DNA of 64,000 nucleotides from Asticcacaulis machinosus (GTDB lineage: Bacteria; Pseudomonadota; Alphaproteobacteria; Caulobacterales; Caulobacteraceae): NCBI RefSeq assembly GCF_028550435.1, contig NZ_JAQQKV010000001.1, positions 930,001-994,000 on the forward strand, given 5' to 3'. The stretch's first letter is position 1. Each line of letters opens with the position of its first letter. The notes beneath the pieces are model-generated. The model had not been told where the DNA came from, ran no database searches, and saw nothing but the letters and a program-made list of their open reading frames with translations. The translations under genes were made by a program, and so were the position numbers. Shown here piece by piece: positions 30,719 through 44,048 of this stretch.

Positions 30719-31864
30719 TTAATCTAAAATTGAGGTGGACTGGGGCTTGAAGATCGCCACCGCTCTCGCGGCCAACACGGTCTTAACCCCGATCCACCAT
30801 TTTTCACTGGCCTTGATCTGGCCTCTAAAGCCCATCATGGGCTTTTCGATCCAGTTCCATGACACCCAGCCAATCACAAAACAGATAGGCAGCGCGATGA
30901 GGATGTTCCAGTACCATTCTCTTAGATCAGGGAACAGATGCACGATGGTTTGCTGAACCACAGCGCCATAGAGGAATATGCCGTATGAGTAATCGGCGGC
31001 ACGGCTAAAGGCGCTCCTGACCGGATTACAAAGCCCCAGAAAAACGGTGAAATAGGTGGCCGGGATGACGCCAAGATACTCGCCGCCTGTGACATATGAC
31101 AAAAGGACAACCGACAGCACGGCGCTGATCGCAAACAGCACCCAGTTAAAGGCGATCCGGTCGCGGTAAAGGTACATCGCCACACCGGCAAGGAAGAACG
31201 GTACTAAGAACTCACCGCCGATCACGCCGGGCGATTCCAGACCTTGCCAATCGTTCGCCGCCTTTTTCATCAGGTCGCGGCCCATGACCAAAGCCAAGGC
31301 GATCCAGACCAAGAATTTTCTTCGTTTCAGGCCCAGCACAAACAGTATCGCCAGCACGATGTAGCATTTAAGCTCATAGGGCACCGTCCAAAGCTGGGAG
31401 TTGACCTGACGCGGGAACGGATTGGTCTCGAAAACACCCGGCAAATAATAGCTGATATGGCCGGTGACATTGACCAGATAGCGCAGGAAATCGGGATGCG
31501 TGAAATATTCGCCCAAAGGCAGCATCGTAACGAACGTACCGATCAGCAGCGCCGACAGCAGAACCTCGACCGTCAGGGCCGGATAGATGCGTATGAATCG
31601 TAAGCCAAGGAAATTCACCAGCGTCTGAGATCGCTCAAGACTTCCGGCGACCAGAAAGCCCGACAGGGCAAAAAACATAGGCAGGATCAGCTTAAGCACC
31701 GGGCGCGCCGGACTATCCCAGAATTGATACGCGATGGCATCGCCGTAACAATAAAGGACGCTGTGGCTGACCACGACGCCCAGCGATAAAATAAGCCGCA
31801 TATAGTCGAAACCGCTGGGGCGATGATCAGCCCGGAGCATTTCAGATGCCAGCGTCATGTTCAT
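30719..31864 (-). CDS. acyltransferase 3 family membrane protein (OafA-like)
   Basis: A 381-residue integral membrane protein with about ten hydrophobic segments and the family features of acyltransferase 3 enzymes: an N-terminal SGFDYMRLILSLGVVVSH (Arg and His of the first helix, where the catalytic site lies), FFALSGFLVAGSL near residue 65, R-F-I-R-I-Y-P-A-L near residue 89, and WTVPYELKCY. These enzymes transfer acetyl or other acyl groups to O-antigen, capsule or other surface sugars. In a prophage this is a typical lysogenic-conversion gene that alters the phage receptor and blocks superinfection. It is leftward, opposite to the late tail unit, with its own likely promoter at 31930, so it can be expressed in the lysogen. 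Confidence 0.88.
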   Translation of the reverse strand: MNMTLASEMLRADHRPSGFDYMRLILSLGVVVSHSVLYCYGDAIAYQFWDSPARPVLKLILPMFFALSGFLVAGSLERSQTLVNFLGLRFIRIYPALTVEVLLSALLIGTFVTMLPLGEYFTHPDFLRYLVNVTGHISYYLPGVFETNPFPRQVNSQLWTVPYELKCYIVLAILFVLGLKRRKFLVWIALALVMGRDLMKKAANDWQGLESPGVIGGEFLVPFFLAGVAMYLYRDRIAFNWVLFAISAVLSVVLLSYVTGGEYLGVIPATYFTVFLGLCNPVRSAFSRAADYSYGIFLYGAVVQQTIVHLFPDLREWYWNILIALPICFVIGWVSWNWIEKPMMGFRGQIKASEKWWIGVKTVLAARAVAIFKPQSTSILD

Positions 31865-35170: not shown

Positions 35171-35479
35171 ATGGTGGTGGGACACCCTCAATCAAATCAA
35201 TCCGGGCTGGGTATCATGAGTAAACCAACTGAACAGCGAGCTGAGTGGCTGGACGCCCAGCGCAAACGCAGTCGCGAAAAAGGCCCTATGGCCCCTTGCG
35301 AAGTGTGCGGGGCAAAGTCCACGGCCAGAAGCTCTTACCGCTTAGGGCCGCGAACGCGGTGCCTATATTACACCTGCAAAAACCCTGAGTGCGGACACGA
35401 ATGGGTAATGAACCTTGAATGGATCAAGACGACGCGACCCTCCCGGCTAGTTTGTGAGCCGGTCGCCAAGCCGACCTAA
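35171..35479 (+). CDS. ogr: Ogr/Delta-like zinc-finger late activator
   Basis: A 102-residue protein whose core PCEVCGAKSTARSSYRLG, then Y-Y-T-C-K-N-P-E-C-G-H-E-W-V-M, has the C-x2-C-(about 21)-C-x4-C zinc-binding pattern and T-x-R-S-S of the Ogr/Delta family. These proteins turn on P2 late genes through a dyad about 55 bp upstream of the start and contact the alpha subunit of RNA polymerase. The dyads at 6840, 19498 and 23425 are obvious targets. AGGGG lies 8 bases before the ATG at 35171; a second ATG at 35216 would give 87 residues, closer to P2 Ogr (72). Unusually, the gene is in the early operon, not after D. Confidence 0.83.
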   Translation: MVVGHPQSNQSGLGIMSKPTEQRAEWLDAQRKRSREKGPMAPCEVCGAKSTARSSYRLGPRTRCLYYTCKNPECGHEWVMNLEWIKTTRPSRLVCEPVAKPT

Positions 35480-35589: not shown

Positions 35590-38277
35590 ATGTCGATGCG
35601 ACAGGACATATATGATGAGTTGCTACCGCGCCTTATGGCCGATTTCCGGTTTAAGGTCGAAGGTGACAACCTGCGCAAAGGCGAATGCCCGCAATGCAAA
35701 GGCCGTGAGCTATTTGCCTATAAGGCCACACCCTGGACGCTTCACTGCGGTCGGGCCAATAAATGCGGCGAAAAGTTCAGCGTAAAAAGCCTTTATCCTG
35801 AAATATTCGATACCTGGTCGAACCGTGTAAAGCCCACCCCTCAAAATCCGAACGCCAGCGCGGAAGCTTATCTCGAAGGGGCACGCGGCCTGAAACTGTT
35901 GGGCCTGCGCAAAGCCTTCTCTCAGGAAATTTTCAAAGACTACGACCGGAACATGACCTCCGCCACCGTGCGGTTTCAGCTTTCCAACGGGGCGAAATGG
36001 GAGCGTCTGATCGACCATCCCGGACGGTTCGACCGCAAAGCCAATTTTATAGGCTCCTATCGCGGACATGTCTGGATGGCGCCAGATCAGGGCCTTGAAG
36101 TTCTCGCCCGTGCAGACCGCATATGGATCACCGAAGGCATTTTCGACACATGCTCTTGGCGGCAGGCGGGTGAGTGCTCGGTCGCCGCCATGTCCACCAA
36201 TAACTACCCTGATCAGTTTTTGGCCGATCTGAAAAAAGAAATCGCGGCACAAAACCTGCGCGGCCCAGAATTGATCTGGGCGTTCGATAATGGGCGGGCG
36301 GGCGTTGAATACACCCGCAAATACCATGCGGAAGCCATGAAAAACGGATGGCGGTCAACGGCGGCTCAGCCGGTGCCCGAAGACAGCAAAGCCGACCACG
36401 ATTGGAATGACCTGCTTATGGCGGGCAAGCTGACGCCCGAACTGATACCGGAATATCTGTGGAATGGCCGCTTGATACTGGCCGACAACGCCACCGACAA
36501 AGCCATTCTGCTATGGGAAAAACAACGGCGCGCCAGCTTCCATTTCATCCACGACAGCCGCACATGGTGGGCGTCCTTCGATCAAAAAAAGATCACTGAA
36601 ACCAAGGACAAGGAAGAGGTTACCGAAAACTTTGCCGCACGTTCATGCGCCGAAGTCACCCAGATCGCCAACTGTGCATTTCGCGTACTCTACGCTCAGT
36701 TAGATTTAGGCACCGGCGAAAACCATTTTTTTCTCGACATCGACGTTCATGGCAGACCGGGCCTCTTTAAGGCGCGCATGTCCGCCGCCGCATTAACAGC
36801 CGGATCAGAATTTAAAAAGGCCCTCATGGGGGCTGCGGGGGCTTTATGGGAAGGCGGATCGCGCCAGCTTGACCGGCTTGTGGCCGAACAGACCTTCGGC
36901 ATGAAAACCGTCACGGCCCTGCCCTTCGTTGGCTATTCCGGCCGCAAGGATAAGAAAGAACAGCCGGTTCATAATGCATGGGTGCTGGGCGATTTCGCCG
37001 TCCAAAATGGCAAGGTCTATAAAATCAATGCCGAGGACTATTTCGATTTAGGCAGCATGCAGCTCAAGCTGGCCAGCCGCGATCCTTACCTTGATATCAA
37101 ATACGATCCGGATGCCTTTGATATCTCGTGGGTCATGGTTGTGTGGCGCGCCTTCGGGCCTAACGGCATGGTCGTTACCGTCTTCTGGCTGCTGTCGTTT
37201 TTTGCGGAACAAGTCCGCATTCATCACCATAAATCTCTGGGCTTTGTCGAAATGTCGGGCATCCCCGGCACCGGCAAATCCACACTTATCGAATTCCTAT
37301 GGAAGCTGTGTGGGCGGGATAATTACGAAGGCTTTGACCCTTCCAAGGCCACAACCGCCGCGCTCGCCCGCAATCTGGCCAAGGTCGCTAATCTGCCGAC
37401 CGTCTTTATGGAAAGCGACCGCGCTGACACCAATTCACACGCCAAAAAATTCGACTGGTCAGAGGTAAAGCCCTTTTTCAATGGCCGGATTGTGCGCTCA
37501 CGCGGGAAACCCAGCGGCGACAATTCAACCGATGAAAGCCCGTTCCGAAGCGCACTGATCATCAACCAGAATGCACCGGTCGTGGCTGAACAGGCCGTTA
37601 TGGAGCGCATCATACAGATGGCGTTCACTAAGGAAGGCTGGAGCGCTGACACTAAGGAAGCCGCGACCCAACTTGAACACTGGCCGATGGACGACATCAG
37701 CGGCACCATAATCCATATCATCCGACGGGAAAAAGACATTCTTGAGAAGTTCTCTGCCCTTAAGGATAAATATGAGGCGGCGTTTCTGGCCGCTGACAAC
37801 CGGGTTAAAAATGGGCGGATACGGCTTAATCACGCGCAGTTACATGCGGCGCTAGAGGCCTTCGCACCGATCCTGAAACTGACACCGGATATTCTGCGCA
37901 CCACCCACGATCATATTAACAGTCTCGCCATAGCCCGCGACCAGCTTATCGAAAGCGATAATGAGACTGTGGCTAAGTTCTGGGACATCTTCGATCACCT
38001 CGAAGACGATCCCAAAACCCTGACCCCAGAAGGGGAAGTGCGCGGCCTCAACCACAGCCGTGGCACCGATTTCATTTCGGTCAACCTCCTGCAGTTTGAA
38101 CAGGCCGTAAAGCGCGCAGGCCTCGCCGCGCCGACAACAGACGAACTGAAAGCCAACCTCAAAAACTCGAAATCCCGCCCGTTCGTCGAGTCGAACAAGG
38201 TCATCAACTCCGGCCTAACCCACGCCTCTGTGCGCTGCTGGGTATTCCGCCGCGAACCTCAAAAGAAAGGAGGCTGA
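35590..38277 (+). CDS. bifunctional DNA primase-helicase (zinc ribbon, TOPRIM, P-loop ATPase)
   Basis: An 895-residue replication protein. An N-terminal zinc ribbon has Cys33, Cys36, Cys53 and Cys59 (CPQCKGRELFAY, LHCGRANKCGE), as in primases. A TOPRIM-type part follows (about 180-235): R-I-W-I-T-E-G-I-F-D-T and LIWAFDNGRAG, with the catalytic Glu and acidic pair. The C-terminal part (about 530-750) holds Walker A GIPGTGKST near 557-565 and Walker B-type FMESDRADT. It should prime and unwind phage DNA, as P4 alpha or T7 gp4 do. P2 itself uses the gpA nickase, absent here, so the replication module is of different origin. Confidence 0.85.
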   Translation: MSMRQDIYDELLPRLMADFRFKVEGDNLRKGECPQCKGRELFAYKATPWTLHCGRANKCGEKFSVKSLYPEIFDTWSNRVKPTPQNPNASAEAYLEGARGLKLLGLRKAFSQEIFKDYDRNMTSATVRFQLSNGAKWERLIDHPGRFDRKANFIGSYRGHVWMAPDQGLEVLARADRIWITEGIFDTCSWRQAGECSVAAMSTNNYPDQFLADLKKEIAAQNLRGPELIWAFDNGRAGVEYTRKYHAEAMKNGWRSTAAQPVPEDSKADHDWNDLLMAGKLTPELIPEYLWNGRLILADNATDKAILLWEKQRRASFHFIHDSRTWWASFDQKKITETKDKEEVTENFAARSCAEVTQIANCAFRVLYAQLDLGTGENHFFLDIDVHGRPGLFKARMSAAALTAGSEFKKALMGAAGALWEGGSRQLDRLVAEQTFGMKTVTALPFVGYSGRKDKKEQPVHNAWVLGDFAVQNGKVYKINAEDYFDLGSMQLKLASRDPYLDIKYDPDAFDISWVMVVWRAFGPNGMVVTVFWLLSFFAEQVRIHHHKSLGFVEMSGIPGTGKSTLIEFLWKLCGRDNYEGFDPSKATTAALARNLAKVANLPTVFMESDRADTNSHAKKFDWSEVKPFFNGRIVRSRGKPSGDNSTDESPFRSALIINQNAPVVAEQAVMERIIQMAFTKEGWSADTKEAATQLEHWPMDDISGTIIHIIRREKDILEKFSALKDKYEAAFLAADNRVKNGRIRLNHAQLHAALEAFAPILKLTPDILRTTHDHINSLAIARDQLIESDNETVAKFWDIFDHLEDDPKTLTPEGEVRGLNHSRGTDFISVNLLQFEQAVKRAGLAAPTTDELKANLKNSKSRPFVESNKVINSGLTHASVRCWVFRREPQKKGG

Positions 38278-38279
38278 TC

Positions 38280-38732
38280 ATGAAACGCTTCATCTGCTCC
38301 GGCTGTGACGCCACGGCTGACGGCCCCGCCGATGCCCTGCCCGAAGGCTGGCATTGGCAGACGACCGCCCGCCTGGGCGAAGTGCCGCGGTGCCATGACT
38401 GTGCCATCAAAAACGCCAGTCGCATCGCCACCGGTCGCATGAGCACCGAGGAAATCCTCAATGCGGGCAATGATGGTGCCGAAACCGATGCCATCACATC
38501 CGCCGCCCAGTCGCGCCTTAAATCCTTTGTCGAACGCTTCGACCGCCTGCTCGATGACGCCGAAACCATCCGCATCGACATTAAGGAAGTTGGCCTCGAA
38601 GCCAAAGGCGAAGGCTTCGACGTGAAAATTCTTAAGCGTGTCGTGATCGCCCGCCGGAAAGACCCCACCAAACGACAAGAGGAAGAAGCCCTCTTCGACC
38701 TATACGCCTCCGCCATTGGCGGTCTGGGCTAA
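38280..38732 (+). CDS. zinc-motif protein fused to a GapR-type DNA-binding domain
   Basis: A 150-residue protein. Cys6/Cys9 (CSGC) and Cys38/Cys41 (CHDC) look like a zinc ribbon. From about residue 78 to the end, AQSRLKSFVERFDRLLDD, then D-I-K-E-V-G-L-E-A-K-G-E-G-F-D-V-K-I-L-K-R and RQEEEALFDLYASAIG, matches the GapR family (DUF2312). In Caulobacter crescentus GapR is a nucleoid protein that binds overtwisted DNA ahead of replication forks. A perfect AGGAGG (38268-38273) precedes the ATG, 2 bp after the primase-helicase stop. This suggests high expression and a role in phage fork topology or interference with host GapR. The fusion to a zinc motif is unusual. Confidence 0.82.
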   Translation: MKRFICSGCDATADGPADALPEGWHWQTTARLGEVPRCHDCAIKNASRIATGRMSTEEILNAGNDGAETDAITSAAQSRLKSFVERFDRLLDDAETIRIDIKEVGLEAKGEGFDVKILKRVVIARRKDPTKRQEEEALFDLYASAIGGLG

Positions 38733-38757
38733 CTCAATCCCGAAAAGGACAACCCTG

Positions 38758-39318
38758 ATGAGACTTGAATTAAGCGGCCACGATTGGGCGTTCGTAAAAA
38801 GAGTTATCGCGTCAGCTAATGTTGAGCACGACCCGCGCTTTGCTGAGAGATCACAATCGCTTTTAAGCCCAGGCTATATTGAAAATGAGGCGCTGCAATT
38901 AAACCTTAGCCTACTAATCCATGCCGCGCGCAAAGAAGGATTTGATGAGGGCAGGATATCCATCACTGCCCATAAAATGGCCGTTGAAAAAATGCAGGCC
39001 AACGCTGTCAGCGGTCGGCCAACGGCTGAGGTTATGGCCGAAGCTAACGCGCAGCTTGACGACGCCGACCAACCGGCCCCGGCACATCCCGGCTGGCTGG
39101 TCTGGAACCCCAACGGACGCCAGCCTAACTATCATCACGCCAGCATAGCCAGTGCCGAAACCGAGGCCCAACGACTGGCAGACATTAACCCTGACCAGCC
39201 CTTCTATGTGTATGGCCCGCTGACCTGCGCCCGCGCGCAGCGTGTTCTCGTGAAATCGAAATCCATCCCCGTCCCGCCAAAAACGGAGGTCGATCTCGAT
39301 GACGAAATCCCTTTCTGA
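38758..39318 (+). CDS. hypothetical replication-linked protein with SSB-like acidic C-terminal tip
   Basis: A 186-residue protein I do not recognise by fold. The first 100 residues are helical (MRLELSGHDWAFVKRVIASAN onward), then HPGWLVWNPNGRQPNYHHAS and QPFYVYGPLTCARAQR look like a small beta-sheet domain. The last residues, VDLDDEIPF, are almost identical to the C-terminal tip of single-stranded DNA-binding proteins (DDDIPF), which recruits RecO, PriA, RecQ, Topo III and polymerase III chi. I chose the ATG at 38758, which has AGGA upstream; an earlier in-frame start at 38716 lies within the GapR-type gene. The end overlaps the next gene by 20 bases. Confidence 0.68.
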   Translation: MRLELSGHDWAFVKRVIASANVEHDPRFAERSQSLLSPGYIENEALQLNLSLLIHAARKEGFDEGRISITAHKMAVEKMQANAVSGRPTAEVMAEANAQLDDADQPAPAHPGWLVWNPNGRQPNYHHASIASAETEAQRLADINPDQPFYVYGPLTCARAQRVLVKSKSIPVPPKTEVDLDDEIPF

Positions 39319-39604
39319 CCAAGGCGGCATTGCCGTCCACTTCACTGAGGACGCCCCTTGCGGGCGGGCCTATGACTGGCGGCTCTACTGGTCACCAGCG
39401 GAAGTTGTGGAACTGATCACCGACCGTCTCAACCGCCCCCGCCATGCGCTCGAATTCCGCACCGTTCCGCTTGGCGACGGCGACGGTATCGAAGTTCGCG
39501 CCCGCCCCGAAGGCAAAACCGTCCCCGTCTACATGGCCCTGATCTGGGGCGACATCACCTTCCGCGATCTGATCGCGGTCGGCCACCACAGGAAAACCGC
39601 ATGA
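39299..39604 (+). CDS. hypothetical protein, 101 aa
   Basis: A 101-residue alpha/beta protein (MTKSLSDQGGIAVHFTEDAPC at the start, RHALEFRTVPLGDGDGIEVRA in the middle). No recognised family. It overlaps the preceding gene by 20 bases, hence encodes over the SSB-like tip in another frame, and overlaps the next ORF by 4 bases. Confidence 0.62.
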   Translation: MTKSLSDQGGIAVHFTEDAPCGRAYDWRLYWSPAEVVELITDRLNRPRHALEFRTVPLGDGDGIEVRARPEGKTVPVYMALIWGDITFRDLIAVGHHRKTA

Positions 39605-44026: not shown

Positions 44027-44048
44027 GGATGGCGGAGACGCAGGGATT
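44027..44048. repeat. attR: 22-bp repeat within tRNA-Ser
   Basis: This copy of the 22-bp core includes the last 19 bases of tRNA-Ser(GCU) with its CCA. The prophage therefore restores the full tRNA gene at its right end. The matching attL copy at 2229-2250 is a tRNA tail without the rest of the gene. Confidence 0.92.

Follow-up and report, generated by a model that had tools for sequence, protein, structure and literature searches.

The replication region of a P2-like prophage

The window, by which we mean the whole 64-kb stretch of DNA analysed here, contains a prophage region. The ten ORFs that we scanned include those for an endolysin, a spanin, a tail fibre, a tail sheath, a tape measure protein, a baseplate protein and an integrase. 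Between the phage structural and integrase ORFs lie, on the plus strand, genes for an Ogr/Delta-type regulator of the P2-like kind (35171..35479; PF04606, E 5.7e-11; PHROG 603, transcriptional regulator) and a primase-helicase with a Toprim domain (35590..38277; PHROG 1139, DNA primase, E 2.9e-258; Toprim_2), which has relatives in P2-like phages such as Smp131 and Dobby. These matches are best explained if the module described below belongs to the early region for DNA replication in a P2-like prophage. A tRNA-Ser gene adjoins the integrase, and a 22-base direct repeat that lies over the end of this tRNA gene (44027-44048) recurs 41.8 kb away at 2229-2250. The repeat pair possibly represents the attachment sites and may mark the prophage ends. 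A minus-strand ORF at 30719-31864 adjoins the tail genes; we take its product to be membrane acyltransferase-like and perhaps surface-modifying cargo.

Two further plus-strand genes follow the primase-helicase. The first (38280..38732), preceded by an AGGAGG ribosome-binding site read directly from the sequence at 38268..38273, encodes a 150-aa protein that joins a zinc-type motif to a GapR domain, as judged from profile, structure-sequence and alignment matches. The second (38758..39318) begins at the ATG at 38758 and encodes a 186-aa protein that ends in an SSB-type tip, VDLDDEIPF (39289..39315). Within the tail codons of this gene (39280-39318) lie both the start codon and the ribosome site of its downstream neighbour (39299..39604, plus strand), an ORF with no assigned function. 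The coordinates and frames that an initial annotation of this DNA gave for the GapR and tip genes are correct.

We surveyed the distribution of the module through its primase and GapR genes. The primase was found in 6 of 390 Caulobacteraceae genomes, all six among the 25 listed from the window's genus, and in each of the six the GapR fusion is the first or second gene after the primase. A class-wide sample of 385 genomes contains the primase in three besides the window's own, with no GapR among the ORFs listed downstream in those three (one contig ends about 1.4 kb on). The primase also matches 21 of 50,697 phage records, P2-like phages included. Seven of these 21 were read: in six, the two genes translated downstream of the primase include no GapR and carry no tip, and in the seventh, L269, GapR directly follows the primase. 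The gene after the primase in phage ESSI2 is named SSB in the record, and its translation carries no tip. Together, the searches yielded nine distinct primase-GapR loci (the window, L066, L068, L003, L004, L070, L001, L002 and L269); L069, L071, L076-L078 and L279 are repeats of some of these.

The GapR domain itself is already common in phages, being present in 139 of the 50,697 records, at least 108 of which are named after alphaproteobacterial hosts. This count runs contrary to a 2025 report that presents GapR as first identified in a phage genome (PMC12185513).

The GapR-domain protein and its FtsK-gamma relatives

The profile search bears out the initial annotation's assignment of the C-terminal half of the 150-aa protein to GapR. 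Residues 76-147 (38505..38720, plus strand) span all 72 positions of PF10073 with a score of 79.1 bits against a cut-off of 22.6 (E 1.9e-22), and the best sequence matches among solved structures are Caulobacter UPF0335/GapR chains (E 2.1e-21). The part of GapR that forms the tetramer appears, from the sequence, to be present. Because the protein scores 99.1 bits against NCBIfam NF052541, below the equivalog cut-off of 140 bits, we class it on its sequence as a GapR-domain protein and not as GapR itself.

The CxxC...CxxC motif that had been described at the N-terminus, fused to GapR, is also present (38295..38402, plus strand) and is a putative zinc motif. Its four cysteines (C6, C9, C38 and C41) are invariant in all eight aligned sequences, namely the window protein and seven relatives, as are D10, P21, G23, W24 and G33. 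The predicted structure of this part comprises four short strands together with one helix, with pLDDT 85-90 over residues 1-40, within a whole-protein model of pLDDT 73 and pTM 0.35. A fold search with the model found nothing in the PDB that reached E 0.001, and the best fold matches of the zinc part are ribosomal-particle chains (E 0.2-0.6), which we take to be zinc fingers of the eL24/Rlp24 type. A search with the zinc domain returned 12 matches, of which the eight besides G000, G019, G023 and G040 are weak (E 0.001-0.0094). Reading covered four of these eight, the others being G148, G169, G182 and G288: G021 is real by gene order, G033 and G303 show no operon match, and G206 has one ORF match (E 4e-4) that we took as chance.

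Alignment with the other loci places the window protein in a wider family that the initial annotation had missed. In six of the nine primase-GapR loci the GapR protein carries an N-terminal FtsK-gamma domain, which in five (L066, L068, L001, L003 and L070) is matched by the Pfam FtsK_gamma profile alongside GapR (E 1e-21 to 5e-24) and in L004 was recognised by alignment and motif. FtsK-gamma is a site-reading winged helix. Of the features of this group, the window protein has the CxxC...CxxC part joined to GapR and encoded beside the primase. The reading of this protein as a zinc-GapR fusion holds for the window copy; the wider family consists, in most of its members, of FtsK-gamma/zinc/GapR fusions.

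FtsK-gamma was not found in the window (best tblastn match E 2.3), and the one FtsK_gamma match in the genome falls on a different contig, within an open frame of 846 aa, as would be expected for the host FtsK. This absence is not unique, because the GapR proteins of L002 and L269 also lack the domain. Since the nearest relative is L066, we infer that FtsK-gamma was lost from the window copy. The window protein starts two bases past the stop codon of the primase gene, a position that corresponds to the beginning of the zinc domain in L066.

Five FtsK-gamma-bearing relatives each match PHROG 4212 in two stretches. Elsewhere, phage GapR proteins carry different N-terminal extensions (L112, 6797-7270; L084, 6974-7612), and that of L112 is winged-helix-like, with an HTH_24 match (E 1.9e-4) just under the cut-off for that profile. 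The variety of these extensions suggests that GapR has repeatedly been fused to DNA-reading parts.

The SSB-type tip and its carriers

The initial annotation had also described the second protein as an unrelated one that ends in VDLDDEIPF, the docking tip of SSB, and this end is confirmed. The end is an acidic tip of the DDxIPF type; the SSB of the host, which is the only PF00436 match in the genome, ends in FDLDDEIPF, so that the last eight residues of the two proteins are identical. No other window ORF of at least 40 aa has an SSB end of the pattern searched for. The tip protein itself has no Pfam or NCBIfam match, PF00436 included, and its PDB sequence matches are none better than E 0.85. 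Its central domain (39091..39219, plus strand; GWLVWNP...H...EAQRLA...FYVYGP), which is common to relatives, matches PHROG 17352, a family with no assigned function (E 1.2e-05).

A model built from five sequences is weak (pLDDT 64, pTM 0.34). Its N-terminal part is rich in alpha-helix, its central domain combines strands with a helix, and its tail is of low confidence; no OB barrel is seen in it. In fold searches with this model, too, no PDB match reached E 0.001. In a viral fold library the matches are mostly short alignments to uncharacterised phage proteins, with one to DUF2188 (E 0.08) and an uninformative one at E 4.8e-4 that has a TM-score of only 0.23. The searches do not support the view that the protein is an ordinary SSB, as no profile, sequence or (weak) model sign of an OB domain was found. 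No SSB was recognised anywhere in the 64-kb window, where the SSB model also finds nothing. On the points named in advance as able to overturn the initial annotation, then, the GapR domain matches, the tip is kept in the best relatives and no OB fold is predicted (in the pLDDT 64 model).

The gene after GapR varies among the nine loci. Four of them have a strict tip of the SSB type at its end (VDLDDEIPF in the window and L066, AKDDEIPF in L068, RIDDLPF in L003), and L001 has a degenerate one, DLDDVNF; in L004, L070, L002 and L269 it has no tip. The proposed trio of primase, GapR and tip protein is kept in four of the nine loci and not in all. The central domain is common to the window, L066 and L068, and the body of the L003 protein differs (it matches PHROG 29525). 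As judged from these sequences, the slot after GapR is mosaic, with the tip borne on two different bodies. Because four of the nine loci lack the tip and that of L001 is degenerate, the tip protein can be dispensed with in this module. The slot proteins of L068 (5922-6722, minus strand) and L001 (6725-7351) start with a Walker-A-like GPVASGKTT sequence that the window copy lacks.

Outside the primase-GapR loci, the relatives L256 and L257, each from a different genus, resemble the window protein in hardly more than the central domain, and end in DDHIPF and EEIPF. Each lies beside a gene for a PDDEXK-type DUF3799 protein, and L257 also beside RecT. The expectation that homologues keep the tip is borne out in the four relatives with the best-matching central domains and fails for a weaker central-domain relative in phage Alpheus, which has no tip. 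The relatives search gave 13 non-self matches, of which G023, G019, G293 and G058 were followed. The nine others (E 0.0028-0.0085) were not counted as relatives; among these, L047, L051 and L052 lack a tip and no tip ORF lies in the regions of G014 and G198, the remaining four being G259, G266, G085 and G380. Searches by peptide pattern for relatives of the tip protein found none in viral contigs and one in genome contigs.

True SSBs can also occur near GapR. A PF00436 SSB ending in NDDIPF directly follows GapR in L082, and L019 and L013 have an SSB gene farther downstream, L019 together with a polymerase III clamp gene. In L013 (7737-8214) the phage SSB and its tip lie in two reading frames, and the record therefore seems to be frameshifted between them. 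Among 61 viral loci with a GapR ORF, GapR is followed by a tip gene in only two, L082 and L076, and L076 is identical to L003.

We extended the analysis of tips to the viral collection. DDEIPF followed by TGA occurs in at least 120 stretches of viral contigs, and a control, the single same-composition shuffled hexapeptide IDPEDF followed by TGA, occurs in two stretches of the entire collection; a chance origin of the tip is made unlikely by this one control. From 120 listed loci (L136-L255) we took 121 tip ORFs, of which 34 match an SSB model built here, five are shorter than 60 aa and 82, in 29 groups, are not SSB-like. The SSB filter was made from the host SSB and the same ORF set, and some of the 82 may for that reason be divergent ssDNA-binding proteins; one group representative matches a T7-type SSB family. 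At most nine of the 29 representatives have Pfam matches, with helicase, ERF, T7-type SSB and ExoX-like families among them, and PHROGs adds annealing proteins, a recombinase, a primase and an ssDNA-binding protein to the tip carriers. The tip is no peculiarity of this phage, and SSB-type tips are present on many phage proteins that are not recognisable as SSBs.

At the other loci, tip ends are found on 9 of 3,760 distinct ORFs of at least 80 aa (three SSBs, four slot genes and two others), a count that omits the loci linked to the tip pattern (L136-L255, L256-L259, L040-L044 and L054-L056) and comes from a non-random sample, the loci having been chosen as relatives of GapR or of the operon. 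One of the two others (L014, 3789-4418) lies upstream of GapR and ends in ALDDPIPF. This ORF is related to all 13 sampled members of the L144 group, tip-ended phage proteins of about 200 aa without assigned function.

Possible roles of the two proteins

The initial annotation had combined its domain calls into a joint function, in which the phage supplies its own fork-topology factor and recruits host proteins. The domain calls stand, and the joint reading, which we infer from them, is the best supported. We regard it as an evenly balanced proposition that the two genes encode a phage fork-topology factor and an SSB-tail docking adaptor that recruits host proteins without a recognisable phage SSB. 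The GapR part would clamp over-wound DNA in front of the fork of the phage and help topoisomerases, as the host GapR does, and the zinc part would make a phage-specific contact. The loose tail of the tip protein would present the same last eight residues as the host SSB to the binding partners of the SSB tip, such that host PriA, RecO and the polymerase III chi subunit could be held at the phage DNA. All three are encoded in the host genome and are candidate partners.

According to the literature, RecO and DnaG bind the SSB tip (PMC7913777, PMC5872125), as do HolC/chi and DinG (PMC11981726), and PriA binding to it is mentioned in PMC5928155. GapR recognises positive supercoils as a tetramer and requires its tetramer part to do so (PMC8360656). 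The idea that the phage supplies its own factor needs qualification. Because the host genome encodes its own GapR and an SSB that ends in this tip, the phage proteins supplement the host factors or compete with them. A version in which the phage provides a function that the host lacks is not supported, as genes for GapR, SSB and FtsK_gamma are all found in the host genome.

The tip protein might instead be a decoy that fills the SSB-tip pockets of host proteins and keeps them off the host SSB, for takeover or against repair. The identity of its last eight residues with those of the host SSB would suit such a role, as would the fact that profile searches recognised no DNA-binding domain in the protein. 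However, the tip gene adjoins primase and GapR genes, its relatives lie beside RecT and nuclease-type genes, and helicase, annealing and ssDNA-binding families are represented among the tip carriers that we sampled. Recruitment fits this neighbourhood better, and we consider a decoy unlikely. Less probable still is that the partner is made by the phage, with the tip recruiting the phage primase-helicase and acting only within the phage replisome. The SSB hexapeptide is an interaction site for DnaG in E. coli (PMC5872125), and the tip protein lies beside this primase module wherever it is found in the window's genus. Against this, no such primase is among the listed neighbouring ORFs of L256 and L257, and the same primase occurs in P2-like phages that have neither GapR nor a tip in the translated downstream genes.

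The tip could also be a coincidence of translation, in which acidic codons near the stop codon serve as the ribosome site of the next gene and merely resemble an SSB tip. The tip codons of the window and L066 hold GGAGG and the next ATG, and in those of L257 a GAGGAG immediately precedes the point where the following gene starts, so these three tips are not independent of translation signals. Nevertheless, a ribosome site leaves the I-P-F residues unexplained, L068, L003 and L256 keep the tip with, by eye, no GGAGG or GAGGAG in its codons, and the one shuffled control (2 against at least 120) points the same way; we consider this explanation highly improbable. A further alternative concerns the GapR protein alone and is compatible with docking by the tip. 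This protein might be chiefly a regulator or silencer of the prophage, aimed by its FtsK-gamma and zinc parts, and not a fork factor. The site-reading character of FtsK-gamma would suit such a role, and in L001 the GapR part has a match (E 8e-4) to a PHROG that bears the name transcriptional regulator. The position of the GapR gene beside the primase argues for a role at the fork, as does the occupancy of over-wound DNA ahead of forks by host GapR (PMC8510090). On balance the regulator is doubtful.

The tip carriers found in other phages allow the docking reading to be put more generally, and we do so tentatively. The SSB tip may be a portable docking tag that many phages place on non-SSB proteins, including helicases, annealing proteins and small adaptors, and that loads SSB partners at phage DNA without a phage SSB. 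In the module described here, the slot after GapR would take any tip carrier at hand, and GapR would be aimed by FtsK-gamma and zinc modules. If this is correct, PriA, RecO and similar enzymes can be loaded by platforms other than the host SSB, phages can shift the SSB loading signal onto other proteins, and a simple sequence rule would be available for finding new phage replication and recombination factors. The FtsK-gamma/zinc/GapR fusion would likewise couple, within one naturally occurring protein, a module that reads DNA sites and a sensor for over-wound DNA. Our search of open-access PubMed Central returned nothing on SSB-type tips of non-SSB phage proteins or on an FtsK-gamma/GapR fusion.

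Relation to known systems

The closest known counterpart of the first protein is the nucleoid protein GapR of Caulobacter (DUF2312/UPF0335), with which it shares the complete 72-position domain, including the C-terminal part, and, by eye, most of the basic residues. It differs from Caulobacter GapR in its extra CxxC domain, in falling below the NCBIfam equivalog cut-off and in being encoded by a phage gene beside a primase in a host that keeps its own GapR. Its GapR half also matches positions 258-351 of the 353 in PHROG 4212, a family with no assigned function. Six of the nine loci have a GapR protein whose N-terminal domain is the gamma domain of FtsK (PF09397), here detached from the motor and joined to GapR; the window copy lacks it. 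The second protein resembles SSB (PF00436) in the last eight residues of its tip, which are identical to those of the host SSB, and differs from it in that profiles, sequence matches and the (weak) model show no OB domain. A parallel is provided by the SSB of phage HK620, which stimulates Sak4 and requires its last six residues to do so (PMC5928155). In that case the function of a phage DNA protein depends on the tip, and the tip carrier is an SSB homolog.
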